DNA from: Amphibalanus amphitrite
Taxonomy: Eukaryota > Arthropoda > Thecostraca > Balanomorpha > Balanidae
DNA: 64,000 bases
Assembly (NCBI RefSeq): GCF_019059575.1
Contig: NW_024882772.1
Span: 124,001 to 188,000 of the forward strand
Direction of reading: 5' to 3'
The notes beneath the pieces were generated by a model. The model worked only from the letters and a program-made list of their open reading frames with translations. It searched no databases and was not told where the DNA came from. Made by a program: the position numbers and the translations under genes. Shown here in pieces: positions 2,806 to 62,972 of this stretch; position 1 is the first letter of the stretch, and each line of letters opens with the position of its first letter.

Positions 2806-5800
2806 ATGAGGGCTGTTTTGCTGTTTATTTTTTTAATTGTGATATCTATTCAATGCAAGGGAAACATTGTTTCCGAGCTTGCCCTTCCACCAGAGCATGT
2901 ACCATTTTATGTTAATTCCCACCAGCGGTTCTCGGACGGTTGCAGGAGGAACAGTAGCTGCGAACTGAAGGTAAGCCAATTTATAATTTATTTTTCCTAC
3001 CAAGATTCCGTTCTTACAGCTTTGGTACCTCATGATGCATTTTGCAGAAGATTTGTAGTGGTGGATCCAGAAATTAGTTGAAGTTGTGTGGGATGCATTG
3101 CATACCTACCTATCTACCTATCTACGTATCAATATTTAGGTATTCCCAGGGCCCTGTTTCACTGCACTGCATTACAGCATGCTGCGAATATCTGTGTATT
3201 AGGTTTCCATGGAAACATCAAACTGATGCTCGCAATGTGGGAGCATCTAGCTGCATTGGTCTCAAACACCACACTAATACAGCAAGCGCGCTGCAGCGTC
3301 TGGCCATGAAACAGGGCCCTGAACGGTGCTCACAACTTTTAAAACTCTTGTGCTTACTTTCCCTGCTGTGCAATTCAAAATAAACTTTTTATTTTTAAAT
3401 TGTCTAGTTCTTGTCCTTAGAAGAAAATGGTGATATTTTGTCAGTTTCTGTTGCTTTGGGAGAGGCTAATTCTTTGGAAATGCCTCCTGCCCCCTCTGCT
3501 ATTGGATTTGTGTTGTCATGAGTGGCTTTCTGTGTGCTTCATTGATATTGTAAGCATTGGCTCTGTTTCTGTGTACCTACCTATACACAGTCAGACTTAT
3601 AATTCATTCTCTTTTGTATTGTATCTACTGTGAATGATAAAGCCTGTTTCATTTTCAGCCATATCTGGACCAAGGGTTATGCTGGGGATATGAAGAGAAC
3701 TGTCCTATTTTTAAGTCCTACTTGGTTCCTGAGTGTGATGGCAAAAGTAAAGGATGGGCAGCCACAAAAACTAGTCAGTTGGAGATGTATTATGAACAAG
3801 CAGACTTTGGGTACATCAAAAGGAGGATGAAGACAATGTTCCCATTATGCTCCCCTATAGATAGTAGCTTGGTGAGTGTCCCATTTTCAATGGGCAGTTT
3901 TACCATTATTGTGTGATTATGATGATTTTGGAAACAGTTTTACCAATATGAAAAGTGTCAAGTCACCTGGTGCTGATTATTGATATCTGCATCTCTATGT
4001 TTAAGATAAACAAATAATTTTTATTTTTGTGAACACTCAAAATGCAGATTTGATGCTTAGGTGTATCATCTAGTTGATGTGGGATTTCATCAACAGGAAG
4101 CATCTGCTCTCAATTGCTCCTCAAAGATGGAGTTCTGCAGAGGCCGCAACATCAGACTCGACTTCCGAGAGCTGACAAAGCGGCGGGGCGAGCTGCTGCG
4201 GTACAAAATGGACGTGCTGAAGCCTGGCCAGATAGCTGGGCACTGCCGGTGAGTCCCACTCCACGAGTGGGAGCTTTGTCCCCACCACACACATGTTCTG
4301 GTAATGTCCAATTTGGTGCCTTCTTTATTAGGGGAATCCATAACTTCAGTTGACTTACTGGTGAAGCAAATCATTCTGATGAATGTTGTACGAGTGTATT
4401 AAAGTCTATTCCATTTAAATGTATATGATATCTATCTGACATATAAAATAGCATAAATGATGGTCTGTCAGCACCCAGCGATTGTGCATGCTCGCCCTCG
4501 CACCATGCTTACGATCGTCTCCACGAGTAGGGTCCACATTATGCCGTGACCGTTCCGCTCCCATACCCCGCAGCGTGGACCGTGACCGGCTGTCGTCCGA
4601 GCTGGAGTTCATGAGTGCGCTGCAGTCGTGGTCGCCCGAGATCCAGCACCTGACGCAGGCGGATAGACCGCTAACCGGTCGGCCAGAGTGCGACCGGGTC
4701 GTCACCACGCCCACCTACATCATGAAACTCGACGCCTGTGAGCCCTAGTAGCACACAACATTGATACAACATTGAGATATGTTGAAATCAGGTTGATTGT
4801 CAATATTGGTGCTTCAACACGAATTCAACATTGATTCAACGTTGATATCACGTTGATATTTGGTTGTGCTTTGTCGAATCTTGGTTGAAGTTCAACATTG
4901 TAGTTCAACATCGATACAACATTGTCCCAATGTTGAGTTCACAATATCGACAGAGGTAGAATTTCAACGTTGTAATTCAACATTGATACAACATTGGCAC
5001 GATGTTGATTTCACAATATTGATAAAAGTAGAGTTCCAACATTGTGATTTAATTGCTATATTGCCCCGCAGTTGTGTTGACACTTGACAGCATCAAAGGG
5101 GGCAAATGCCCCCTCGGGTGTAAGGGGTCCCATGGACTGGCTCGACAGGTCCTAAGGCGTCTATCGGACTTAAAGGGTGGGATCACTGAGGTTCCAAATA
5201 GACGAATATGGTCGTATAGAAATAGTACCTATTGGTATCTTATATAGGCATATGCGTCTTGAATATGATATATAGAGAGTTATAAAGTGAATCGATCCTT
5301 AAATGAAGATAGCTCCACTTCATAAAATCCTTTTATAACATCCTCAACCTACGTTGAATTAAGCAGCATTATTGTATCGGCATTATTTTATTCGGGTGCC
5401 ACTGCACCGGTGCCATTCAAGTATCACGGTAGTTAGTGCCTTGGTCCCCTCCCACCAGTCGTGCGCTGTGCTCTTTCAGAGACCGTACCGACTGGAATCT
5501 AGCGACCGCTGACCGTTTTGAAGACTGTACGCGGCCGGCAGCGGGCGGTCCCATCCTCGCCTCCGGCTAGAGAGGGGGAGACCGCGACAGGGGACCGCGC
5601 GTCCCCCGTCCCGTTGTGCCGGCTCGCAGAGTGCGGACGGGTGTGTTGAGTGTGTTGTGTCCAGTGTCGTCTGGCGTCTCCTCTTTCGATCCGACCATGT
5701 AGGTTTCCGCCAGTTTCTGCTGTGTGACAATCAGTGCATTTATCCAAGTTATTGCAGTGATAAGTTTAACCTTCGCCCCAGTGGGGGGGGGGGCATATGT

Positions 5801-8800
5801 TACCACCCTGTCGCGTTTTTTGCGTATAAATAAAAAACCGCGGCGCGTAGCGCCGCGCCGCTTGGCATAGCTTTTTGTTCATCAATTTTGGGTAATGTGT
5901 GAAGTTTTTGACCACAGGTCATGTCAGGTCAGGTCACCAGGTCAAGTTAACTGACCAAGCCTAAAAAAAGTTTGCAATCATATCCAGCCTGCAGTGTTTG
6001 TCAGAAAGGTTTGAAACTTGGTGGATTGCATGCTGTTATGGGCGCCTACAATTTGTATATCTCGGATTTTTTATATCCGTGACCTAAGGTCAGGTCAGTG
6101 GCGTGACCTTTCCATTACAGGTCAATGGAGAAAAATGAAAATGCCTCTAGATCCGTGTGTACGCATCGGAACAGTCCAAATATTTCAGAATCACAATGAT
6201 TTAGTCCACTCGTGATGACCAAGGTGTCATTTTTGCTGATAGCCTCTAGACAGGTCATCTGAGGTCACTTGAGGCTACAAACAGTTTTTTGCCAATAACT
6301 CGCGATTGGAAAGAGATAGAACGCTGGGGATGGTCTCATTGTGTTTGTCTTGTTGAGACGCATCGAATGATATGCAACATGACCTTTGCCGGTAAGGTCA
6401 TGACCTTGACCTGAGGTCAAATTTTCAAGTTGACCTTTCGAGGTCAAATTATAGTTCATTCGACGCGTCTCGGCTAGGGGAACACGATTCTGGCAATAGA
6501 AATGTCGTAGCTTTTTGTAGTCGAAAGTTATTGTCGAAAAACACTTTTCGTAAAAACAGCTATTTTTGGAGTTTTTGCCCTCTGCAGGCTAAACCGTTGA
6601 CCTGAGGTCAATATTGATAATGACCTTTTCAAAAGAAGAGTTCAAAAGCTATCGTTTGCACTTCCATCCGTTTTTCTAGCTACCATAGTTCCTGAGATAG
6701 CGGCATGTTTTCTGAGAAATATAATGACAATTGGCAAATTTTGACCTTTGGTGACCTCTGGTGACCCCAATATTGCTCTAAGGTGAAAAATGACCGAAAT
6801 ACTTTCAAACGTACGCATTGAGAGCTATCGACTGCTTTTTACCGCGTCTTTCTAGCCCTCTTAATTTTTGAGTTAGAGGTGGGTGGTAACATATGCCCCC
6901 CCTCACTAGGGCGAAGTTGGCTGAGACCGCCACTGGGGCGCGGGTTAAAAAACTCACGCTGAAACGTTCTCTTCAAAATGGTGGCGATCACCGTCGTCAC
7001 TCACTTGCCTGCGGCAAAGAGAAAAAGTGCTGCCGGTGGCGTCATGTAGCGTCATGACTTGAAACAGGGCCCGGTAAGTACATATAAAAGAATAGATTCA
7101 TGGTAGTAAGACGTATAGGTACATGCGTGATGCTAAATGCACTTACATAAATATCTATTATCTTTGCTGAAAATGACTGAACTGAATTTACTCAAAGGCC
7201 CAATTTATTACCGTTGTTACATAGGAATCTCCGCTTTGTTACAGAAGTGCGAGGCTCGACAGGCGACTCAACCCCCACGGCCCTACTCAACCGCTCAAGA
7301 TGTGAAGCTGGCGGAGACTGAGCGGCGGCCGAGGTTGTGTGACGTGATATGTGAAGTGTAACTGACTCGAAAAAAGTGAAGAGCTGTGCATATATCATGG
7401 AAATACATTTTGCCCCGAACATTGACTGTGACGGTGACGCTGGAATATTTTAGGTAATTACGGGATCCTAAGGGATTTCGTACACGTATAGGTCTGTCCA
7501 CAACAACATCGAGACAATGTTGTATCAACATCGAGACAATGTTGAATCAACCAAGAATCAGCATCGAGACAATGTTGTATCAACATCGAGACAATGTTGA
7601 ATCAACCAAAAATCAACATCGAGACAATGTTGTATCAACATCGAAACAATGTTGTACAATGTTGTCCTGTCAATATTGATACGATGTCGAAATTCAACAT
7701 CGTATCAATGTCGAAAGTGGCTAACAGAATTACATCGATACAACATTGTTGTCAATATTGATACAACATCGATACAATATTGATGTGCTACTAGGGAGTC
7801 GAGTAGCAATAAGTAATGTCCTTTTTGGACGCTATTTGAGTTTTTATCGTCGAAATGCGGTAGGTATATGAGTTGCGACGCCAGAACTTGTGACCAATGC
7901 TATCAAGCTATTATAAGAACTCTCTGCCCTGCTAACTTTTATTTGAAGCACGGACCTCTACATACCTCTGGAGACTTTGGCATATGAAGGGATGCATACT
8001 TGTAGAACACGTCTTATCGTTGTTCGCTGACCGCTTTATGCCGTATTTGCGACTCGTAGCTCCCTCATTGACTGCAAGTCTTTTCGTCGACCACAGCGGT
8101 CAGCATGTACCACCACTTCTGCGACTTTTTCAACCTGTACGCCAGTCAGCACCTGAACGACTCGATGGACGGCGACCACCCGGGCTCGTTCCACCGCGAC
8201 AAGCAGATCCTCATCTGGGAGAATGTGCCCTACCGGTCCGCCTTCGCGCCCATGTTCCAGGTGGGCTGGTCTTGGTGGGGGTGGATGTTTTTCGTGCAGT
8301 CTGATTTTAACCTGGGCAGGCGTTAGAGTGTGTGGTGTTTATGAAATGTTGTTGGCTAATTTACTTAAAGGTAGTGTGCCAGCTTTCTTGGACCGTATGG
8401 AGTTAATGGCCCAGATAAGGAGAACCGGATTTTTAGAACTTATCCATACCTTCAAAACTCATGGAAACGTCTTAAATTCTTCAAATTTTGAGTACCCCAG
8501 TGCGAAATTCGCCCCGACGGGTTGTCGGTCGTACCCCAACCACATTTCACACCACTATGAACAATAAATGCACACACTGAAATCGCTATTACCGATATGC
8601 TCATCCAATCAAGTTTCGATAAACCCGTTCATCATCATCTCCTGCGGTTTCGAACACGCCTGTTAGGTGGCTTCTGATGCTCGTCGAGGTCGGAATTTCC
8701 AAATACGCGTGGTGCGTCGGGCCGCGCGCTCTGACTTCGGCCAAGAAAAATGCGTCAGCTGATCATTGTCATTTCTGCCACTTGCGTGTGGTGAAATGGG

Positions 8801-50600: not shown

Positions 50601-51756
50601 TGTCAAGACTCTGATGCCCAGGGGCTAGGATCCACCTCTCAATTCATTCCTTAGTAGAAGCACACATGCCGTCTACAAAAAAAACACTAATTCATTAGAA
50701 CTAGAAGTTCAGCTGAGCATACTGGATGGAGTGTTTGCCCACCATTATCAAAAAGGATTTAAAATTTCATCAGATGACCTTATTTGTTGGAGTTATTGTC
50801 CAATTGAAGAAAATATTCAACATCATGGGTATGTAACGACAATACGCATGCAATTTGCAGTGATGTTGGGGTACTTACGCTTCACAGTATGGCAGTTTGT
50901 TGAATCCCTTGTATGTCCTCATGTTCAGTGCCATTCCACACTCCCAGCACCGGAAGCAGCCTTTGTGCCATGACTGAAAGAGAACAGACACCAGTGTCAA
51001 TTGACAAAAGCATGGGAAATGTGTCACAGGTGTCAAGCATGTCAAACTCGCCCACTTGATTCTGATAGGAAGCTCAAGGTTCTCTGCTGGCATGCATCAG
51101 CATATAATTGGCAGTCCTAAAATGTTAGGGCAATAAGCATATAATGCCTTTTCTATTGCATGTGATCTAAAAGTTGTCAAATGCACAATTTTGTTCTTTT
51201 AAATTTTTACTGATAAGGTAGCAATCTCTTCTGGAGCAACCAAAGGGGAGGGCATTTGAGCATTTGTCCCTCATGCAGCACCTAAATTTGATAAAATTTT
51301 GTTGTCCTACCATTGACAAAAATTAAACTTCTGGAAGATTACTTTTGCACAGCTGTCAATTAAATCACCAGAAAACAAAATAGCATTGGCTATTTTGAAG
51401 AATAAAAATGGGAGATAATGAAACTCAGCACAAACAACTTTCTGGGTCTCGCAATGATTCATCCTTCACATGCTGAGCAATTAACATCTGCATTTTCTGG
51501 GCATTGTAACTACAAAAAGTCAGTCAGTGGTTCAAACATTGATCAAGTGGGCACATTAGAATTGAACATGGTGGGAGTAATCCCTAATCAGGATGGTTTA
51601 CCAATTTTTGAGTAGCTCAATTAAATGCAATGCAGAAGCAGACATTCAACATCATTCACATGCACCATACTTGATACTTGCACTTACTTTGTCTAAGCAC
51701 TTCAGCTCTTCTGTAGGATATACAGTTTTCGTACACTTTCCACACTTTTTATTCAT
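26641..51756 (-). CDS. Lasp: LIM and SH3 domain protein Lasp, 10 coding exons (SH3 isoform, 485 aa)
   Basis: Actin-binding adaptor of muscle, adhesion sites and germ-line actin structures. Exons (high to low): 51688-51756, 50879-50973, 44199-44283, 34822-34922, 34006-34088, 30631-30873, 29945-29998, 28424-28779, 27789-27980, 26641-26820; all GT-AG and in phase. Residues 1-56 are a complete LIM domain (C5, C8, H26, C29, C32, C35, C53, H56). Residues 57-120 are two nebulin repeats ([19 protein letters not shown], then [20 protein letters not shown]). The linker has a Gly run, a short TVIYTSE motif, [19 protein letters not shown], then Gln/Pro/Tyr- and Gln/His-rich tracts, as in Drosophila Lasp. 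The C-terminal SH3 (427-485) has AMYDYDA, GWMTG and MLPANYVE. The 54-nt exon at 29945 is phase-symmetric, so it can be skipped. Introns 2 and 3 are 6.6 and 9.3 kb. Confidence 0.93.
27436..27510 (+). repeat. tRNA-like sequence, possible SINE remnant in a Lasp intron
   Basis: TTGATAGCTCAGTGGTTCCT resembles a tRNA A-box arm, and GAGTCGGTATTTCC sits at about the B-box distance. Too degenerate for a functional tRNA. Confidence 0.3.
28001..28115. repeat. 28-bp minisatellite just upstream of Lasp exon 9
   Basis: About four copies of GCGGCACA.(T/C)C.GG(A/C)CA.GGTTA. The array ends about 20 bp from the exon 9 acceptor (27981), so it occupies the branch-point region. Confidence 0.75.
31919..32005. repeat. 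31-bp minisatellite in Lasp intron 5
   Basis: Three copies of a unit containing CGGACCGTCCGTAACATACA followed by GACAC. Nothing else is recognised between the long alternative exon and exon 6. Confidence 0.75.
32372..34088 (-). CDS. Lasp: alternative long 3' exon of Lasp: extends exon 5 past its donor to a separate stop
   Basis: Exon 5 (34006-34088) encodes the end of the second nebulin region ([19 protein letters not shown]) and has a good donor, CAG|GTAGAT. If that donor is not used, the frame stays open for 545 more codons to a TGA at 32372, giving a 688-aa LIM-nebulin protein without the Q-rich linker and SH3. The tail has a basic/acidic helical start ([20 protein letters not shown], then K/R/E-rich), a central Arg-rich part, a Glu-run ([16 protein letters not shown]) and an acidic end ([15 protein letters not shown]). 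No known domain is recognised. GC-rich DNA makes long open frames easier by chance, but this one is far longer than any other in the gene and is in phase with exon 5. No minus-strand AATAAA was seen in the next kilobase. Confidence 0.55.
34129..34170. repeat. partial duplicate of the Lasp exon 5 start, with its own splice acceptor
   Basis: CTCTCCGTGGTAGG.GGCGT.ACTG with AAAGGGTCAT repeats the 5' end of exon 5 about 64 bp upstream of it. On the minus strand it offers a strong acceptor (TTTTCTCTCAG|TGACGCC). Its use would read SDAPYHGEL, then run to a TAA exactly at the authentic acceptor. Confidence 0.6.
37025..37070. repeat. GAGAGT/GTGGGA microsatellite in Lasp intron 3
   Basis: GTGAGAGTGAGAGTGGGAGT and following bases. 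Flanking GC-rich sequence is without a recognised gene. Confidence 0.8.
37596..39150 (+). repeat. 1555-bp duplicated segment, copy 1 (Lasp intron 3)
   Basis: Identical as far as I could compare with 39318-40872, at an offset of exactly 1722 bp. It contains no recognised gene; open frames in it are short and occur in all frames. Confidence 0.9.
39151..39317 (-). repeat. inverted copy of the sequence that follows duplicate copy 2
   Basis: Reverse complement of about 40853-41017. It separates the two 1555-bp copies, giving the order A, S-inverted, A, S. Confidence 0.9.
39318..40872 (+). repeat. 1555-bp duplicated segment, copy 2 (Lasp intron 3)
   Basis: Second copy of 37596-39150, followed directly by the forward-oriented S segment (to 41017). 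Confidence 0.9.
41296..41325. promoter_or_regulatory. paired CRE palindromes in Lasp intron 3
   Basis: TGACGTCA at 41296-41303 and 41318-41325, start-to-start 22 bp. These are CREB/ATF-type sites by sequence; activity is unknown. Confidence 0.4.
44464..44491. promoter_or_regulatory. paired CRE palindromes in Lasp intron 2
   Basis: TGACGTCA at 44464-44471 and 44484-44491, 20 bp apart, about 180 bp upstream (in the gene's direction) of exon 3. Confidence 0.4.
45654..45685. promoter_or_regulatory. paired CRE palindromes in Lasp intron 2
   Basis: TGACGTCA at 45654-45661 and 45678-45685, 24 bp apart, each followed by a (C/A)(G/T)TGT motif. Confidence 0.4.
47973..48973. mobile_element. 1.0-kb piggyBac-like non-autonomous element in Lasp intron 2
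   Basis: TTAA at 47969-47972 and 48974-48977 flanks a perfect 13-bp inverted repeat, AGGGAGATAATGA / TCATTATCTCCCT. The AT-rich interior contrasts with the GC-rich surroundings and has no transposase. Confidence 0.8.
50160..50280. repeat. minisatellite in Lasp intron 2
   Basis: Three to four copies of GGGTCACC(CCGAG)CACTGACCACGGCACCAACT-type units, about 38 bp, the last ones degenerate. Confidence 0.75.
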
Positions 51757-53436
51757 AATTCTCGTCTATAATCGTATGGCACAGGGTTCACTTTCCTCCT
51801 CGTCCACTGCGCGTGGCAAGAGGGGCGCGACTGCCCGCCTCGAAGCAACAGCTTAAGTATGTTTAGTCAGAAGCACTGTCACCCGTTTAGCTGATAGTAA
51901 CCACACGTAAATAAATGCATTTAACCAGCGCACACAATCACATATCCGATCCAAGCGGACGTGACAGACCACCCGCGCTCGTAACCGCAAATGGGCGCGT
52001 CGCGTCGGAGAGGACGCAGTGCTCATCTACTGGTTCAAGGTTCGTAAAATTACCTACACGTTTTCTGGTAGAGTTGGTAGAGTCAGTCTGCGATCGAGTT
52101 TCTAGTCTGGATGACGTCAAGACTGTGATGATGTCATTGGAGTACTTGGGAAAGAAATGGAATTATTGGAATTTGGAAATATATTACAAAAATTCAATTA
52201 TTTCAAACGCACCAATGATCATACTTATTCCATTTAACACTGGCATCATAAGCTACCGCGCACCCAGCATCGAGAGCATCCTATTCCTGACTTGTTCTCG
52301 GTTTCCCAAATCGGAACATTGCCTAACCGGTATTCATCGCCTTGGCCTAACCGGGCCTGACCATTATTTTCGCAATGACAGTTTTCTTAGACAATCGCGC
52401 TCTTGCTTAGTTCTGAGCATTCAAATGCATAAACAACGGTAGGACTGATCAGAAGCGCAATTTTTAGGCTCCGTCCTAGTGGAAGTCTCCGCGCGGGGGC
52501 AAACTTTGCAAAGGTGAGTGGCCAAAATTGCCATCGGCATCGACTCCAATGCCGTGAGAGATGAAATGACGTAAATCGCGCAAACAGGCGCTTGACAGCT
52601 CTCAATGATTCGTTGCTACAAAACCAAATTAGTCATAGTTTGCTCAATGACCTCTGTACTCTAAGGTGATGGGTCTATGATTCTGTCTATGACTATCGAT
52701 GGTATAGTTACCGAGGGTTATGGCTCAGGTCAAGAAATAGACAGACGGCCCCAGCTAGACGGGTCCCGGTCATAAAATAGAAATGTCTACTTACACTAGT
52801 GACTAGGGACACATCCAGAGGTGTCCAGGATTGCAGTCCTAAGAAATGGCTAGACAAGGGGCCCAGTCATAAACGGGACCCGGTTCTAAAAATGCCTTCT
52901 CAAAGGGCGAAGGCCCCGATGACTCTAAGAACGTCTAGACACAAGACCCCGGTCGAAAGGGTCCCGTCCCTAAAAAAAAATATATATATATATATATATA
53001 ATTACCTAGACACAGGGGACCCGGTCTGGTGGATTCCGTTCCTAAGATCTGCATTATCTTCTCGCAAATACCCTCTCAAAAAAATTGCACCCATGTTGAG
53101 CGGGACCTTTTTGATTAAACGTCGTGGTCCGTTGGAGCCAGTGCCAACGGGTCTGGCCCTGGGCCAGGTTTTGCTAATACGTCATTTGGCCAATCAGGAC
53201 CCCAGTGACAGCTTCAACGCATCCATAGATGCGATGCCATCTATAGATGCGATGCGTATATCTTCATTAATCATTTTACCGTGTTATATTTTTCCGAATA
53301 ACCTGCACAAAATTACACGCTTGACGCGATATGTTGAGAATGGATATGCATGCAGACAAAGCGCGATTCAGACCACAAACAAATTGTCTTCCTGTTTTTT
53401 GGTCAGTCAAAACGCACCCAGTAGGTATAACAAACT
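51757..53436. other. region upstream of the Lasp start codon
   Basis: No coding gene is recognised. It holds one CRE (52112-52119), degenerate repeats with the theme TAGACA...GGGACCCGGTC (about 52740-53050), and a (TA)n tract near 52980. The Lasp promoter and 5' UTR should lie here but could not be pinned down. Confidence 0.5.
53428..53436. repeat. 9-bp target-site duplication, left copy
   Basis: TAACAAACT immediately before the left terminal repeat. An exact direct copy follows the right terminal repeat at 62964-62972. Confidence 0.9.
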
Positions 53437-53851
53437 ATGTAACGGAAGTTAGCAGGGATTCAGCAGGGGTTCAGCAGGGATTCAGCAGGGATCGACGGCC
53501 CCTACGATTTCGCTGAATTTTGGTGTAGAGATGCAGAATGGTGTCCTCTATCGAAAATCCTAGTGCCAAAATGCGGGGAATCCATCAGGGGGGCCACAAA
53601 TCCCAAAAAACAGTATGCCCTCAGGGCACAATCGACGAACTTTGAAAACCCTACTTCTAGCCGTCAAAACAGCTAAAAATGCACGTCATTCGAAAGAGGA
53701 CAAAACTTTACGTACAACGGTACCAAATTTAGGGGGCTAGCGCCCCCCTGAACCGAACAAAACAGCTTCAAATATATGGGCCCGGGAGTATGCCCTCGGG
53801 GCATAAATAAACGTTTTCAACCATTTCAGGCCTATAACATCGACAAAATCC

Positions 53852-56800
53852 AGCAATATGCACATCATTGGAAAGAGCGTAATTTCCCAAACAAAAAACC
53901 CAAGTAACATTTTTCGATGGGGCCCACCTGGGGCCCACGGGACCCAATTGAAATTTGGGGCCCAATGGGGCGGCCCCTACGATTTTCTTCAAAATTTGCA
54001 CAGACACTCTCCTGGGCCCCCTCTTCAATCTGGCTGAAGAAACCTACCGGGGAATCCAAAGGAAGGGGCCCAAAGAGGGCCCCAAAGAGGCCCTTTCTAA
54101 GTATTGCCCCTAATATCGCGACCAACCCCGGCAATATGCACATCATTGGAAAGAGCGTAATTTCCCAAACAAAAAACCCAAGTAACATTTTTCGATGGGG
54201 CCCACCTGGGGCCCACGGGACCCAATTGAAATTTGGGGCCCAATGGGGCGGCCCCTACGATTTTCTTCAAAATTTGCACAGACACTCTCCTGGGCCCCCT
54301 CTTCAATCTGGCTGAAGAAACCTACCGGGGAATCCAAAGGAAGGGGCCCAAAGAGGGCCCCAAAGAGGCCCTTTCTAAGTATTGCCCCTAATTTCGCGAC
54401 CAACCCCGGCAATATGCACATCATTGGAAAGAGCGTAATTTCCCAAACAAAAAACCCAAGTAACATTTTTCGATGGGGCCCACCTGGGGCCCACGGGACC
54501 CAATTGAAATTTGGGGCCCAATGGGGCGGCCCCTACGATTTTCTTCAAAATTTGCACAGACACTCTCCAGGGCCCCCTCTTCAATCTGGCTGAAGAAACC
54601 TACCGGGGAATCCAAAGGAAGTGGCCCAAATAGGGCCCCAAAGAGGCCCTTTCTAAGTATTGCCCCTAATTTCGCGACCAACCCCGGCAATATGCACATC
54701 ATTGGAAAGAGCGTAATTTCCCAAACAAAAAACCCAAGTAACATTTTTCGATGGGGCCCACCTGGGGCCCACGGGACCCAATTGAAATTTGGGGCCCAAT
54801 GGGGCGGCCCCTACGATTTCCTTCAAAATTTGCACAGACACTCTCCTGGGCCCCCTCTTCAATCTGGCTGAAGAAACCTACCGGGGAATCCAAAGGAAGG
54901 GGCCCAAAGAGGGCCCCAAAGAGGCCCTTTCTAAGTATTTCCCTAATATCGCGACCAACCCCGGCAATATGCACATCATTGGAAAGAGCGTAATTTCCCA
55001 AACAAAAAACCCAAGTAACATTTTTCGATGGGGCCCACCTGGGGCCCACGGGACCCAATTGAAATTTGGGGCCCAATGGGGCGGCCCCTACGATTTTCTG
55101 CAAAATTTGCACAGACACTCTCCTGGGCCCCCTCTTCAATCTGGCTGAAGAAACCTACCGGGGAATCCAAAGGAAGGGGCCCAAAGAGGGCCCCAAAGAG
55201 GCCCTTTCTAAGTATTGCCCCTAATATCGCGACCAACCCCGGCAATATGCACATCATTGGAAAGAGCGTAATTTCCCAATAAAAAACCCAAGTAACATTT
55301 TTCGATGGGGCCCACCTGGGGCCCACGGGACCCAATTGAAATTTGGGGCCCAATGGGGCGGCCCCTACGATTTTCTTCAAAATTTGCACAGACACTCTCC
55401 TGGGCCCCCTCTTCAATCTGGCTGAAGAAACCTACCGGGGAATCCAAAGGAAGGGGCCCAAAGAGGCCCCCAAAGAGGTCCTTTCTAAGTATTGCCCCTA
55501 ATTTCGCGACCAACCCCGGCAATATGCACATCGTTGGAAAGAGCGTAATTTCCCAAACAAAAAACCCAAGTAACATTTTTCGATGGGGCCCACCTGGGGC
55601 CCACGGGACCCAATTGAAATTTGGGGCCCAATGGGGCGGCCCCTACGATTTTCTTCAAAATTTGCACAGACACTCTCCTGGGCCCCCTCTTCAATCTGGC
55701 TGAAGAAACCTACCGGGGAATCCAAAGGAAGGGGCCCAAAGAGGGCCCAAAGAGGCCCTTTCTAAGTATTGCTCCTAATATCGCGACCAACCCCGGCAAT
55801 ATGCACATCATTGGAAAGAGCGTAATTTCCCAAACAAAAAACCCAAGTAACATTTTTCGATGGGGCCCACCTGGGGCCCACGGGACCCAATTGAAATTTG
55901 GGGCCCAATGGGGCGGCCCCTACGATTTTCTTCAAAATTTGCACAGACATTCTCCTGGGCCCCTTCTTCAATCTGGCTGAAGAAACCTACCGGGGAATCC
56001 AAAGGAAGGGCCCAAAGAGGGCCCCAAAGAGGCCCTTTCTAAGTATTGCCCCTAATTTCGCGACCAACCCCGGCAATATGCACATCATTGGAAAGAGCGT
56101 AATTTCCCAAACAAAAAACCCAAGTAACATTTTTCGATGGGGCCCACCTGGGGCCCACGGGACCCAATTGAAATTTGGGGCCCAATGGGGCGGCCCCTAC
56201 GATTTTCTTCAAAATTTGCACAGACACTCTCCTGGGCCCCCTCTTCAATCTGGCTGAAGAAACCTACCGGGGAATCCAAAGGAAGGGGCCCAAAGAGGGC
56301 CCCAAAGAGGCCCTTTCTAAGTATTGCCCCTAATATCGCGACCAACCCCGGCAATATGCACATCATTGGAAAGAGCGTAATTTCCCAAACAAAAAACCCA
56401 AGTAACATTTTTCGATGGGGCCCACCTGGGGCCCACGGGACCCAATTGAAATTTGGGGCCCAATGGGGCGGCCCCTACGATTTTCTTCAAAATTTGCACA
56501 GACACTCTCCTGGGCCCCCTCTTCAATCTGGCTGAAGAAACCTACCGGGGAATCCAAAGAAAGGGGCCCAAAGAGGGCCCCAAAGAGGCCCTTTCCAAGT
56601 ATTGCCCCTAATATCGCGACCAACCCCGGCAATATGCACATCATTGGAAAGAACGTAATTTCCCAAACAAAAAACCCAAGTAACATTTTTCGATGGGGCC
56701 CACCTGGGGCCCACGGGACCCAATTGAAATTTGGGGCCCAATGGGGCGGCCCCTACGATTTTCTTCAAAATTTGCACAGACACTCTCCTGGGCCCCCTCT

Positions 56801-57960
56801 TCAATCTGGCTGAAGAAACCTACCGGGGAATCCAAAGGAAGGGGCCCAAAGAGGGCCCCAAAGAGGCCCTTTCTAAGTATTGCCCCTAATATCGCGACCA
56901 ACCCCGGCAATATGCACATCATTGGAAAGAGCGTAATTTTCCAAACAAAAAACCCAAGTAACATTTTTCGATGGGGCCCACCTGGGGCCCACGGGACCCA
57001 ATTGAAATTTGGGGCCCAATGGGGCGGCCCCTACGATTTTCTTCAAAATTTGCACAGACACTCTCCTGGGCCCCCTCTTCAATCTGGCTGAAGAAACCTA
57101 CCGGGGAATCCAAAGGAAGGGGCCCAAAGAGGGCCCCAAAGAGGCCCTTTCTAAGTATTGCCCCTAATATCGCGACCAACCCCGGCAATATGCACATCAT
57201 TGGAAAGAGCGTAATTTCCCAAACAAAAAACCCAAGTAACATTTTTCGATGGGGCCCACCTGGGGCCCACGGGACCCAATTGAAATTTGGGGCCCAATGG
57301 GGCGGCCCCTACGATTTTCTTCAAAATTTGCACAGACACTCTCCTGGGCCCCCTCTTCAATCTGGCTGAAGAAACCTACCGGGGAATCCAAAGGAAGGGG
57401 CCCAAAGAGGGCCCCAAAGAGGCCCTTTCTAAGTATTGCCCCTAATATCGCGACCAACCCCGGCAATATGCACATCATTGGAAAGAGCGTAATTTCCCAA
57501 ACAAAAAACCCAAGTAACATTTTTCGATGGGGCCCACCTGGGGCCCACGGGACCCAATTGAAATTTGGGGCCCAATGGGGCGGCCCCTACGATTTTCTTC
57601 AAAATTTGCACAGACACTCTCCTGGGCCCCTTCTTCCATCTGGCTGAAGAAACCTACCGGGGAATCCAAAGGAAGGGGCCCAAAGAGGCCCCCAAAGAGG
57701 CCCTTTCTAAGTATTGCCCCTAATTTCGCGACCAACCCCGGTAATATGCACATCATTGGAAAGAGCGTAATTTCCCAAACAAAAAACCCAAGTAACATTT
57801 TTCGATGGGGCCCACCTGGGGCCCACGGGACCCAATTGAAATTTGGGGCCCAATGGGGCGGCCCCTACGATTTTCTTCAAAATTTGCACAGACACTCTCC
57901 TGGGCCCCCTCTTCAATCTGGCTGAAGAAACCTACCGGGGAATCCAAAGGAAGGGGCCCT
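53852..57960 (+). repeat. left arm: tandem array of about 15 units of 277-278 bp
   Basis: Each unit contains GCAATATGCACATCATTGG, CAAGTAACATTTTTCGATGG, a GGGGCCC-rich segment, CCTACGATTTTCTTCAAAAT and CTTTCTAAGTATTGCCCCTA. Units begin at regular 278 or 277-bp steps and differ at few sites (for example TAATATCGCG versus TAATTTCGCG). Confidence 0.95.
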
Positions 57961-57992
57961 TCGAAAGGAAGGAAGGAAGGAAGGAAGGAAGG
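57961..57992. repeat. GGAA hinge at the centre of the palindrome
   Basis: A run of about six GGAA units after TTCGAAA. The left array breaks off at GGGGCCC and the right array starts within a different part of the unit (GAAATTTCAATTGGGTCCCG), so the two arms meet out of register. Confidence 0.9.
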
Positions 57993-60900
57993 GGAAATTT
58001 CAATTGGGTCCCGTGGGCCCCAGGTGGGCTCCATCGAAAAATGTTACTTGGGTTTTTTGTTTGGGAAATTACGCTCTTTCCAATGATGTGCATATTGCCG
58101 GGGTTGGTCGCGTAATTAGGGGCAATACTTAGAAAGGGCCTCTTTGGGGCCCTCTTTGGGCCCCTTTCTTTGGATTCCCCGGTAGGTTTCTTCAGCCAGA
58201 TTGAAGAGGGGGCCCAGGAGAGTATCTGTGCCAATTTTGAAGAAAATCGTAGGGGCCGCCCCATTGGGCCCCAAATTTCAATTAGGTCCTGTGGGCCCCA
58301 GGTGGGCCCCATCGAAAAATGTTACTTGGGTTTTTTGTTTGGGAAATTACGCTCTTTCCAATGATGTGCATATTGCCGGGGTTGGTCGCGAAATTAGGGG
58401 CAATACTTAGAAAGGGCCTCTTTGGGGCCCTCTTTGGGCCCCTTCCTTTGGATTCCCCGGTAGGTTTCTTCAGCCAGATTGAAGAGGGGGCCCAGGAGAG
58501 TGTCTGTGCAAATTTTGAAGAAAATCGTAGGGGCCGCCCCATTGGGCCCCAAATTTCAATTGGGTCCCGTGGGCCCCAGGTGGGCCCCATCGAAAAATGT
58601 TACTTGGGTTTTTTGTTTGGGAAATTACGCTCTTTCCAATGATGTGCATATTGCCGGGGTTGGTCGCGAAATTAGGGGCAATACTTAGAAAGGGCCTCTT
58701 TGGGGCCCTCTTTGGGCCCCTTCCTTTGGATTCCCCGGTAGGTTTCTTCAGCCATATTGAAGAGGGGGCCCAGGAGAGTGTCTGTGCAAATTTTGAAGAA
58801 AATCGTAGGGGCCGCCCCATTGGGCCCCAAATTTCAATTGGGTCCCGTGGGCCCCAGGTGGGCCCCATCGAAAAATGTTTCTTGGGTTTTTTGTTTGGGA
58901 AATTACGCTCTTTCCAATGATGTGCATATTGCCGGGGTTGGTCGCGAAATTAGGGGCAATACTTAGAAAGGGCCTCTTTGGGGCCCTCTTTGGGCCCCTT
59001 CCTTTGGATTCCCCGGTAGGTTTCTTCAGCCAGATTGAAGAGGGGGCCCAGGAGAGTGTCTGTGCCAATTTTGAAGAAAATCGTAGGGGCCGCCCCATTG
59101 GGCCCCAAATTTCAATTGGGTCCCGTGGGCCCCAGGTGGGCCCCATCGAAAAATGTTACTTGGGTTTTTTGTTTGGGAAATTACGCTCTTTCCAATGATG
59201 TGCATATTGCCGGGGTTGGTCGCGAAATTAGGGGCAATACTTAGAAAGGGCCTCTTTGGGGCCCTCTTTGGGCCCCTTCCTTTGGATTCCCCGGTAGGTT
59301 TCTTCAGCCATATTGAAGAGGGGGCCCAGGAGAGTGTCTGTGCAAATTTTGAAGAAAATCGTAGGGGCCGCCCCATTGGGCCCCAAATTTCAATTGGGTC
59401 CCGTGGGCCCCAGGTGGGCCCCATCGAAAAATGTTTCTTGGGTTTTTTGTTTGGGAAATTACGCTCTTTCCAATGATGTGCATATTGCCGGGGTTGGTCG
59501 CGAAATTAGGGGCAATACTTAGAAAGGGCCTCTTTGGGGCCCTCTTTGGGCCCCTTCCTTTGGATTCCCCGGTAGGTTTCTTCAGCCAGATTGAAGAGGG
59601 GGCCCAGGAGAGTGTCTGTGCCAATTTTGAAGAAAATCGTAGGGGCCGCCCCATTGGGCCCCAAATTTCAATTGGGTCCCGTGGGCCCCAGGTGGGCCCC
59701 ATCGAAAAATGTTACTTGGGTTTTTTGTTTGGGAAATTACGCTCTTTCCAATGATGTGCATATTGCCGGGGTTGGTCGCGAAATTAGGGGCAATACTTAG
59801 AAAGGGCCTCTTTGGGGCCCTCTTTGGGCCCCTTCCTTTGGATTCCCCGGTAGGTTTCTTCAGCCAGATTGAAGAGGGGGCCCAGGAGAGTGTCTGTGCC
59901 AATTTTGAAGAAAATCGTAGGGGCCGCCCCATTGGGCCCCAAATTTCAATTGGGTCCCGTGGGCCCCAGGTGGGCCCCATCGAAAAATGTTACTTGGGTT
60001 TTTTGTTTGGGAAATTACGCTCTTTCCAATGATGTGCATATTGCCGGGGTTGGTCGCGAAATTAGGGGCAATACTTAGAAAGAGCCTCTTTGGGGCCCTC
60101 TTTGGGCCCCTTCCTTTGGATTCCCCGGTAGGTTTCTTCAGCCAGATTGAAGAGGGGGCCCAGGAGAGTGTCTGTGCAAATTTTGAAGAAAATCGTAGGG
60201 GCCGCCCCATTGGGCCCCAAATTTCAATTGGGTCCCGTGGGCCCCAGGTGGGCCCCATCGAAAAATGTTACTTGGGTTTTTTGTTTGGGAAATTACGCTC
60301 TTTCCAATGATGTGCATATTGCCGGGGTTGGTTGCGAAATTAGGGGCAATACTTAGAAAGGGCCTCTTTGGGGCCCTCTTTGGGCCCCTTCCTTTGGATT
60401 CCCCGGTAGGTTTCTTCAGCCAGATTGAAGAGGGGGCCCAGGAGAGTGTCTGTGCCAATTTTGAAGAAAATCGTAGGGGCCGCCCCATTGGGCCCCAAAT
60501 TTCAATTGGGTCCCGTGGGCCCCAGGTGGGCCCCATCGAAAAATGTTACTTGGGTTTTTTGTTTGGGAAATTACGCTCTTTCCAATGATGTGCATATTGC
60601 CGGGGTTGGTCGCGAAATTAGGGGCAATACTTAGAAAGGGCCTCTTTGGGGCCCTCTTTGGGCCCCTTCCTTTGGATTCCCCGGTAGGTTTCTTCAGCCA
60701 GATTGAAGAGGGGGCCCAGGAGAGTGTCTGTGCAAATTTTGAAGAAAATCGTAGGGGCCGCCCCATTGGGCCCCAAATTTCAATTGGGTCCCGTGGGCCC
60801 CAGGTGGGCCCCATCGAAAAATGTTACTTGGGTTTTTTGTTTGGGAAATTACGCTCTTTCCAATGATGTGCATATTGCCGGGGTTGGTCGCGAAATTAGG

Positions 60901-62548
60901 GGCAATACTTAGAAAGGGCCTCTTTGGGGCCCTCTTTGGGCCCCTTCCTTTGGATTCCCCGGTAGGTTTCTTCAGCCAGATTGAAGAGGGGGCCCAGGAG
61001 AGTGTCTGTGCCAATTTTGAAGAAAATCGTAGGGGCCGCCCCATTGGGCCCCAAATTTCAATTGGGTCCCGTGGGCCCCAGGTGGGCCCCATCGAAAAAT
61101 GTTACTTGGGTTTTTTGTTTGGGAAATTACGCTCTTTCCAATGATGTGCATATTGCCGGGGTTGGTCGCGAAATTAGGGGCAATACTTAGAAAGGGCCTC
61201 TTTGGGGCCCTCTTTGGGCCCCTTCCTTTGGATTCCCCGGTAGGTTTCTTCAGCCAGATTGAAGAGGGGGCCCAGGAGAGTGTCTGTGCAAATTTTGAAG
61301 AAAATCGTAGGGGCCGCCCCATTGGGCCCCAAATTTCAATTGGGTCCCGTGGGCCCCAGGTGGGCCCCATCGAAAAATGTTACTTGGGTTTTTTTGTTTG
61401 GGAAATTACGTTCTTTCCAATGATGTGCATATTGCCGGGGTTGGTCGCGAAATTAGGGGCAATACTTAGAAAGGGCCTCTTTGGGGCCCTCTTTGGGCCC
61501 CTTCCTTTGGATTCCCCGGTAGGTTTCTTCAGCCAGATTGAAGAGGGGGCCCAGGAGAGTGTCTGTGCAAATTTTGAAGAAAATCGTAGGGGCCGCCCCA
61601 TTGGGCCCCAAATTTCAATTGGGTCCTGTGGGCCCCAGGTGGGCCCCATCGAAAAATGTTACTTGGGTTTTTTGTTTGGGAAATTACGCTCTTTCCAATG
61701 ATGTGCATATTGCCGGGGTTGGTCGCGAAATTAGGGGCAATACTTAGAAAGGGCCTCTTTGGGGCCCTCTTTGGGCCCCTTCCTTTGGATTCCCCGGTAG
61801 GTTTCTTCAGCCAGATTGAAGAGGGGGCCCAGGAGAGTGTCTGTGCAAATTTTGAAGAAAATCGTAGGGGCCGCCCCATTGGGCCCCAAATTTCAATTGG
61901 GTCCCGTGGGCCCCAGGTGGGCCCCATCGAAAAATGTTACTTGGGTTTTTTGTTTGGGAAATTACGCTCTTTCCAATGATGTGCATATTGCCGGGGTTGG
62001 TCGCGAAATTAGGGGCAATACTTAGAAAGGGCCTCTTTGGGGCCCTCTTTGGGCCCCTTCCTTTGGATTCCCCGGTAGGTTTCTTCAGCCAGATTGAAGA
62101 GGGGGCCCAGGAGAGTGTCTGTGCCAATTTTGAAGAAAATCGTAGGGGCCGCCCCATTGGGCCCCAAATTTCAATTGGGTCCCGTGGGCCCCAGGTGGGC
62201 CCCATCGAAAAATGTTACTTGGGTTTTTTGTTTGGGAAATTACGCTCTTTCCAATGATGTGCATATTGCCGGGGTTGGTCGCGAAATTAGGGGCAATACT
62301 TAGAAAGGGCCTCTTTGGGGCCCTCTTTGGGCCTCTTCCTTTGGATTCCCCGGTAGGTTTCTTCAGCCAGATTGAAGAGGGGGCCCAGGAGAGTGTCTGT
62401 GCAAATTTTGAAGAAAATCGTAGGGGCCGCCCCATTGGGCCCCAAATTTCAATTGGGTCCTGTGGGCCCCAGGTGGGCCCCATCGAAAAATGTTACTTGG
62501 GTTTTTTGTTTGGGAAATTACGCTCTTTCCAATGATGTGCATATTGCT
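57993..62548 (-). repeat. right arm: inverted tandem array of about 17 units of 278 bp
   Basis: Same unit as the left arm, in the opposite orientation, with the first copy truncated. Many neighbouring units alternate between GTGCAAATTTTG and GTGCCAATTTTG, giving a 556-bp dimer pattern that the left arm lacks. Confidence 0.95.
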
Positions 62549-62963
62549 GGATTTTGTCGATGTTATAGGCCTGAAATGGTTGAAAACGTTTATTCATGCC
62601 CCGAGGGCATACTCCCGGGCCCATATATTTGAAGCTGTTTTGTTCGGTTCAGGGGGGCGCTAGCCCCTTAAATTTGGTACCGTTGCATGTAAAATTTTGT
62701 CCTCTTTCGAATGACGTGCATTTTTAGCTGTTTTGACGGCTAGAAGTAGGGTTTTCAAAGTTCGTCGATTGTGCCCTGAGGGCATACTGTTTTTTGGGAT
62801 TTGTGGCCCCCCTGATGGATTCCCCGCATTTTGGCACTAGGATTTTCGATAGAGGACACCATTCTGCACCTCTCCACCAAATTTCAGCGAAATCGTAGGG
62901 GCCGTCGATCCCTGCTGAATCCCTGCTGAACCCCTGCTGAATCCCTGCTAACTTCCGTTACAT

Positions 62964-62972
62964 TAACAAACT
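62964..62972. repeat. 9-bp target-site duplication, right copy
   Basis: TAACAAACT directly after the right terminal repeat, identical to 53428-53436. Confidence 0.9.

Follow-up and report, generated by a model that had tools for sequence, protein, structure and literature searches.

The window analysed here, a stretch of 64,000 nucleotides from Amphibalanus amphitrite (contig NW_024882772.1, positions 124,001 to 188,000), contains a palindromic element of 9,527 bp, which very probably represents a non-autonomous DNA transposon of the foldback type that receives its transposase in trans, acquires its hinges through break repair and turns over its repeat arrays. The family to which it belongs is a non-autonomous foldback element of an already known kind, and it is large, young and widespread in the A. 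amphitrite genome.

The first-pass annotation had described a 9.5-kb near-perfect palindrome of 278-bp repeats, arranged in two inverted arms around a hinge of about 30 bp and closed by 415-bp inverted repeats. The palindrome was confirmed by TRF (Table 1) and by self-comparison, in which 53437..57959 matched 62963..58436 in inverted orientation with 98.7% identity over 4,528 columns. Each arm is composed of the terminal repeat, which at about 415-420 bp agrees with the earlier description, and of whole 278-bp tandem units (14 in one arm and 16 in the other). The hinge was corrected to 35 bp, and since the arms are unequal in length (4,523 vs 4,969 bp) the symmetry of the palindrome is close, not exact. 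A single ORF of at least 150 aa lies fully within the element (61099-61701) and had no Pfam match at E 0.1, while another of this class (52799-53452) overlaps the element by 16 bases only.

Table 1. Features of the foldback element, in window coordinates
Feature	Position	Strand	Evidence
Whole element, between the two TAACAAACT copies	53437-62963		
Left target-site duplication, TAACAAACT	53428..53436	+	Exact match to 62964-62972; present once at the C86 empty site
Left terminal inverted repeat, ~415 bp, starting ATGTAACGGAAGTTAGCAGG	53437..53852	+	20-bp end has 193 perfect copies genome-wide
11-bp AGCAGGGATTC repeat, 3.8 copies, inside left terminal repeat	53451-53492		TRF
Left array, 14 full 278-bp units and a partial at each edge	53853..57959	-	TRF, 14.8 copies, 98% matches; unit orientation and count
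Hinge, 35-bp spacer TTCGAAAGG(AAGG)n, joining unit positions 164 and 1	57960..57994	.	Junction reading
(AAGG)7 run between the arrays	57965-57992		TRF
Right array, 16 full 278-bp units and one partial	57995..62547	+	TRF, 16.4 copies, 99% matches; unit orientation and count
Right terminal inverted repeat	62548..62963	-	98.1% to the left repeat over a 420-bp alignment; 8 mismatches/413
Right target-site duplication, TAACAAACT	62964..62972	+	Exact match to left copy

It was also proposed that the element, flanked by an exact 9-bp duplication, had arrived as one transposed unit. The duplication is present as described, the chance of such a 9-of-9 flank match being ~4e-6 from base composition, and the empty site was found on another contig (C86), where both flanks are contiguous. 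C86 is collinear with the contig of the window copy at 87-95% (92% between C1275:156000-158400 and C86:814696-817077), and the insertion site matches C86 near 796,510. Among the 18 contig copies that were read at both ends, an exact 9-bp duplication was seen in 12 and a 10-bp duplication in one, with none in the remaining five by a strict rule; of these five, L048 has a 9-bp repeat offset by 5 bp, L013 and L014 show none, and L021 (C1009) and L022 (C938) are suspected chimaeras. The 12 target sites compared had an A+T-rich centre, and a strong motif was not found among them. Long inverted termini built of subrepeats, a duplication with its empty site, and multiple dispersed copies were thus all observed, as in FB-like foldback elements, and together they support insertion as a single unit. 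As the arms are 278-bp tandem arrays, and as diverged 278-bp units (91.5%) lie beyond the left end of copy L007 on contig C1745, a satellite array carrying a chance inversion, with no transposon involved, was also considered; this reading was already disfavoured and is extremely improbable given the discrete ends, the exact duplications at 12 of 18 copies and the empty site.

An absence of further copies of the terminal repeat had been named as grounds for rejecting the foldback reading, and many copies were in fact found at other sites. The 20-bp end occurs in 193 perfect copies in 807 Mb (control, 0), and the 192 ends listed form 62 closed inverted pairs with a median of 9.0 kb, a count that includes the suspected chimaeras on C1009 and C938 and of which 18 pairs were read end to end. 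The left and right 413-bp repeats are identical in 7 of 16 elements, and between elements these repeats differ by a median of 4 mismatches. The plan of the window copy recurs in the copies read elsewhere, and up to 25 whole units were counted in one arm.

Foreign DNA was found in four elements, in each case interrupting a unit, and is therefore nested. The element L019+L020 carries a 5.3 kb insert with identical 246-bp LTRs, which from its reading frame appears to be a Ty3/gypsy-like element; that on C92 carries a 6.2-kb insert with its own 26-bp inverted ends, and L009 and L025 carry inserts of 1.2 kb and ~0.5 kb. As each of the four breaks a unit, they were ruled out as the gene region of an autonomous partner. 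Two further pairs were read from one side: the C142 pair holds at least 3.4 kb of other DNA, with no frame above 165 aa, and the C138 pair at least 2.4 kb, which starts within the right terminal repeat of L027 and has no frame above 116 aa.

The palindrome might instead be a product of assembly, through a collapsed repeat or chimaeric foldback reads. Contigs C1275, C1009 and C938 share a common element (99.6-99.7%) and its right flank behind three different left flanks, and C1275 and C938 both terminate ~11.6 kb to the right, at one and the same sequence. Of 68 unpaired ends, 12 have a contig start less than 10 kb away in the direction of the missing partner, and copies L024 and L028 are cut off by contig ends. 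Nonetheless, both flanks of the window copy match the empty site, with the 9-bp duplication, the plan is the same at other sites, and two hinge classes recur over nine sites in all, so that an artefactual palindrome is improbable. The joins on C1009 and C938 of the window element's right flank to foreign left flanks are suspected to be assembly chimaeras. Transduction of the right flank to these contigs was set aside, though not disproved, because C1275 and C938 stop at a common sequence, the stretches read there carry neither terminal repeat nor unit, and C1009 and C938 lack the duplication. The arm lengths and hinges were read from an assembly that is evidently broken, and probably misjoined, at these repeats; such elements can break and misjoin assemblies, a warning that this family makes plain.

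The 24 contig copies represent 22 loci and fall into 15 hinge classes, of which class A was found at 5 loci, class B at 4, and the other 13 at one locus each. This was the least expected outcome. With 15 junctions across 22 loci, two of them recurring, the mirror line appears to have arisen or been renewed on many occasions, probably through the repair of breaks. Elements with the same hinge had closer units, the divergence being 1.73% vs 2.34% for class A (5 elements) and 1.27% vs 1.93% for class B (3 of 4 elements). BLAST overlaps had pointed to microhomology at the hinges, but by a strict count of the 15 joints microhomology of at least 2 bp was present at only 3, with filler of 1-35 bp at 10 and blunt joints at 2; the joint count thus bears out a repair model only partly. 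Positional kinship of units within hinge lineages was not consistent, as one of eight tests was clear and one borderline (L027, a class A element, and L053, of class B, were omitted), and units of the two arms of the window copy showed no clear mirror pairing, with a mean of 3.6 at offset 0 vs 3.8 for all cross pairs. Homogeneity of units within an element is not universal, since in L051, and marginally in L048, units diverge more within the element than from those of other elements.

These observations are consistent with the following course of events. The element, made up of two inverted arms of terminal repeat and tandem 278-bp units with nothing besides, would move by cut and paste through a transposase supplied in trans, which would make the 9-bp duplications. 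A break in or between the arms, whether it follows excision or results from cleavage of the extruded palindrome, may then be filled by copying from each end and closed by end joining, which would create a new junction, and some of the repaired products would transpose again and found lineages with a common hinge. In the window copy, the (AAGG)n spacer would fit short filler from such joining, and arm lengths and unit divergence suggest that arrays grow, shrink and turn over within an element. We give an even chance to the stronger proposal that the mirror line is not inherited and is remade repeatedly, each hinge being the scar of one break-repair event in a palindrome, with some scars spread by transposition, so that a hinge could serve as the "birth certificate" of a lineage. 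If true, the family would be a natural record of the breakage and rejoining of multi-kilobase near-perfect palindromes in a eukaryote. To our knowledge, neither the origin of all-repeat foldback elements nor the survival of long palindromes in eukaryotic genomes has been settled; a young family of many copies, with exact ends and 15 distinct hinges, offers joints that are directly readable in long reads, and the variety of joins along the mirror line gives a hint of how such elements originate.

The enzyme would most likely be of the Mutator/Rehavkus group, a candidate assignment in which the 9-bp duplication falls within the 8-11 bp of Mutator-like elements and outside the 7-8 bp of Galileo and the P superfamily. 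A search for a Mutator-like transposase gene sharing the ends of the element had been suggested, and none was found in the searches made, which covered MULE-match loci and their distances to ends and were not exhaustive. Mobilisation by an ordinary MULE, of Phantom type or other, is a tentative possibility that falls below an even chance: the duplications are of 9 bp, at least 111 MULE-domain matches are present in the genome (150 of 204 candidates scored), several in intact frames and some FLYWCH-like, and there is a precedent in Tm1 of root-knot nematodes, described as a foldback family whose duplications are of 9 bp and whose enzyme is of Phantom type (PMC3169594). However, the foldback end was absent at the 12 MULE loci read of the 111, the best candidate having 6 mismatches in 20, and no match of the 111 lay less than 25 kb from any of the 192 listed ends, the nearest being at 45 kb. 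At the FLYWCH-like loci, so labelled by reading of the translation, inverted repeats composed of short repeated motifs were observed. That the family derives from a Rehavkus transposon, a type with 9-bp duplications, inverted termini that contain satellite arrays and a PHD-bearing transposase, by loss of its gene comes close to an even chance. Duplications of 9 bp (exact in 12 of 18) and a satellite within the inverted termini were both found here, a plan like that described for Rehavkus-1_TC, yet no transposase with these ends was seen, and the 150 PHD matches obtained by scoring 150 of 916 candidates all lay outside the listed pairs, 18 of 62 of which were read end to end; the nearest match was 4.2 kb away.

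The element was also said to lie upstream of a cytoskeletal gene, which is plausible. A LIM-type exon on the minus strand (50878-50985) matched Pfam LIM with E 0.0014 and 19.3 bits, under the cut-off of 22.9, and PDB CRP1 with E 1.7e-5. A 23-residue minus-strand stretch with a putative ATG at 51756 appears to resemble the start of Lasp-type LIM-SH3 proteins; with this ATG as the start codon, the element would lie ~1.7 kb upstream of it. Pfam searches of six frames of 40.0-53.4 kb returned nothing besides the weak LIM match, those of 10 frames of the window a single match under its cut-off, and scanning the window for Rfam families and tRNAs yielded no hits.

In plan, the nearest known elements are, by their descriptions, Rehavkus-1_TC and Tetris. 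Rehavkus-1_TC of Tribolium castaneum resembles the window element in its 9.5 kb length, the 9-bp duplications listed for its group and the tandem satellite monomers of its inverted termini; its monomers are of 164 bp, in arrays mostly of 5 and 8 (PMC10218199), as compared with 278-bp units here, up to 25 whole units per arm. A 9-bp duplication and a PHD finger are tabulated for the Rehavkus group (PMC6446971), and the listed members have a PHD-finger transposase, whereas the copies read here are without such a gene. Tetris of Drosophila virilis is, like the element here, described as foldback and non-autonomous; its terminal repeats contain ~220-bp tandem repeats, its duplications are of 8-10 bp and its autonomous partner was not found. 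It is described from three structurally complete copies, in contrast to 62 closed pairs here, of which 18 were read end to end, and to 15 hinge junctions. Tm1 of Meloidogyne shares foldback terminal repeats and duplications mostly of 9 bp, but has short (~14-bp) subrepeats and a known transposase-bearing member (PMC3169594). Galileo of Drosophila also has long inverted termini built of repeats (PMC4168063), and differs in belonging to the P superfamily with 7-8-bp duplications. The earlier view that the element is unusual for its size is less well supported, as the published descriptions include a D. willistoni Galileo copy without transposase with repeats of 4,246 and 4,680 bp (PMC4168063) and the 9.5 kb Rehavkus-1_TC (PMC10218199).

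The window element is 9,527 bp long (53437-62963). In each arm a terminal repeat of ~415 bp leads into tandem units of 278 bp, of which 14 are whole in the left arm and 16 in the right. The inverted arms align at 98.7% over 4,528 columns and are separated by a spacer of 35 bp, chiefly AAGG. The left-arm units are related as a star, and mirror pairing between the arms gave no clear signal. When the assembly (807.6 Mb, 2,644 contigs) was searched, the left flank of the element was found to match one other contig, C86 (89 and 95%), and a window stretch 20 kb further left also matches C86 (92%), with the order kept and the spacing similar. Because of this second, collinear match C86 is probably the other haplotype of the locus; it may also be a close paralogue. 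On C86 both flanks are contiguous with one TAACAAACT between them, and neither terminal repeat nor unit was found in the 4 kb read there. This shows that the window element was inserted as one unit with a 9-bp duplication, bearing out the proposal of the first-pass annotation that it had arrived as a single transposed unit with an exact duplication.

The insertion is upstream of a LIM-domain gene on the minus strand, ~1.7 kb from its putative start codon. Exon-like stretches of this gene were found at window 50878-50985 (-) and, with an ATG, at 51756 (-), and the latter looks like the opening exon of a Lasp-type LIM-SH3 gene. To the right of the element, after 1.5 kb, comes a high-copy interspersed repeat of ~2.4 kb (C1275:188454-190861, or L031:555-2962, on the contig of the window), which matches more than 30 places, mostly at 93-97%. 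A palindromic motif of the CAACATCGAGACAATGTTGAA type is tandemly arrayed at window 7504-7656, 4883-5049 and 7737-7784.

Target-site duplications of the window element, recurrent and window hinge classes, and nested insertions
Feature	Position	Characteristics
Left target-site duplication, TAACAAACT	53428-53436	same 9-mer right of element
Right target-site duplication, TAACAAACT	62964-62972	same 9-mer left of element
Hinge class A	unit positions 145/124	five loci
Hinge class B	unit positions 209/138	14-bp spacer; four loci
Window hinge class	unit positions 164/1	AAGG repeats; one locus
Ty3/gypsy-like element	L019:4024 into L020 (C10)	identical 246-bp LTRs, 1,525-aa open frame; nested in unit of foldback arm
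6.2-kb insertion	C92:330458-336690 (L058, L052, L059)	own 26-bp inverted ends (CGTAGCGCCCAG...), 585-aa open frame; nested in foldback unit

Two other contigs, C1009 and C938, carry copies that are 99.6-99.7% identical to the window element. The right flank of the window element is identical over 2.95 kb on C1009 and 99.6% identical on C938, differing by gaps only; the left flanks of both contigs show no similarity to that of the window element or to one another, and no target-site duplication was found at either copy. At ~11.6 kb to the right, C1275 and C938 come to an end in one and the same sequence, whereas C1009 continues. A repeat that served as a shared graph node in the assembly would produce such a pattern, and of the three joins only that of C1275 has the duplication and the empty site in its favour; the C1009 and C938 joins are suspect, yet may be real rearrangements.

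Other copies of the terminal repeat with 9-bp duplications, for which the first-pass annotation had proposed to look, were found. The 20-bp end has 193 perfect copies in the 807.6-Mb assembly (101 after C or G and 92 after A or T) and its reversed control none; with up to two mismatches the counts were 210 and 1. Of the 192 listed ends 68 are unpaired, and the others make up 62 closed, inverted pairs, whose lengths run from 2,128 to 21,757 bp with a median of 9.0 kb. The 62 take in the C1009 and C938 copies, and allelic copies may count double among them. Both ends were read in 18 of the closed pairs: exact 9-bp duplications are present in 12, one has 10 bp and, by the strict rule, five have none (L048, C1009, C938, L013 and L014); in L048 a 9-bp repeat is present, shifted by five bases, and in L013 and L014 the duplication is plainly absent. 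In 7 of 16 elements the terminal repeats of the two sides do not differ at all. Those of the window copy (8 differences in 413) are the least alike except for L048, where the count of 134 is taken to reflect an indel.

In the 17 elements measured the number of whole units per arm runs from 0 to 25 and may be unequal within one element, as in L016 (5 and 25), and the right arm of L049 has incomplete units only. The copies that were read through, among them a minority of the large ones, showed no coding segment between their arms. Unit divergence is 1.33% inside an arm, 1.35% from arm to arm in the same element and 1.96% from element to element, which suggests that units are homogenised or amplified inside an element; the trend is opposite in L051 and, marginally, in L048. 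Directly outside the left end of one element (L007:141-1012, C1745) lie diverged 278-bp units (91.5%), which are an older nested copy or a free array. In four elements (L019+L020, C92, L009 and L025) foreign DNA splits a unit, which shows it to be nested; two more pairs, on C142 and C138, contain foreign DNA seen from one side only, which in the C138 pair starts within the right terminal repeat.

The turn of orientation was placed in 24 contig copies, or 22 loci with the three contigs carrying the window element counted once; no turn was found within the stretch read in L023, L024, L028, L054 and L057. These loci have 15 different hinge junctions, twelve of them, besides the classes tabulated, each at a single locus. 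Classes A and B were found again on different contigs and in either orientation, and the flanks differ among their loci (all flanks read, L053 of class B left out). It is thus unlikely that these two hinges are assembly products, and they appear to have travelled by transposition. Elements with the same hinge also have units more alike than those of other elements. By strict count, the 15 joints show overlap of at least 2 bp in three cases, blunt ends in two and filler of 1-35 bp in ten, which we read as a palindrome centre remade repeatedly by break repair. A new hinge could arise if an excision gap were copied abortively and then repaired, or if an extruded palindrome were cut and then repaired, and the data fit both routes alike.

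With 150 of 204 candidates scored, 111 MULE-domain matches were obtained in the genome, none of them closer than 25 kb to any of the 192 listed ends (the nearest at 45 kb), and the 12 of these loci that were read contain no foldback end. Likewise, no PHD match was found inside a closed pair among 150 of 916 candidates, the nearest being 4.2 kb outside a pair. Since none of the MULE and PHD matches so examined is tied to the ends, we infer the mobilising enzyme from the 9-bp duplication only. Three MULE elements (L043, L044 and L045), with a start that we read as FLYWCH-like, have inverted repeats of short TTTGGTCTAGT-type motifs, which adds a further foldback-like design to this genome. Many PHD matches are near-identical and stand in open frames of several hundred amino acids, and a repetitive PHD-bearing family would seem to be present; as such matches are paired on contig pairs C827/C189, C130/C94 and C54/C96, the assembly may hold both haplotypes.

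A limited literature search returned no title about hinges that form repeatedly within one family of foldback elements. The window element is of a kind already known, and several other foldback elements have termini built of tandem repeats. In the published accounts, Tetris has units of ~220 bp and 8-10-bp duplications, its autonomous partner not having been found (PMC4079207), a Galileo copy has repeats of 4.2 and 4.7 kb without transposase (PMC4168063), and the duplications of Tm1 are mostly 9 bp (PMC3169594). The Rehavkus group is listed with 9-bp duplications (PMC6446971), and Rehavkus-1_TC, of 9.5 kb, carries satellite monomers in its inverted termini (PMC10218199). Among the systems so described, Rehavkus-1_TC is the closest in plan to the window element, which may belong to the Rehavkus group.
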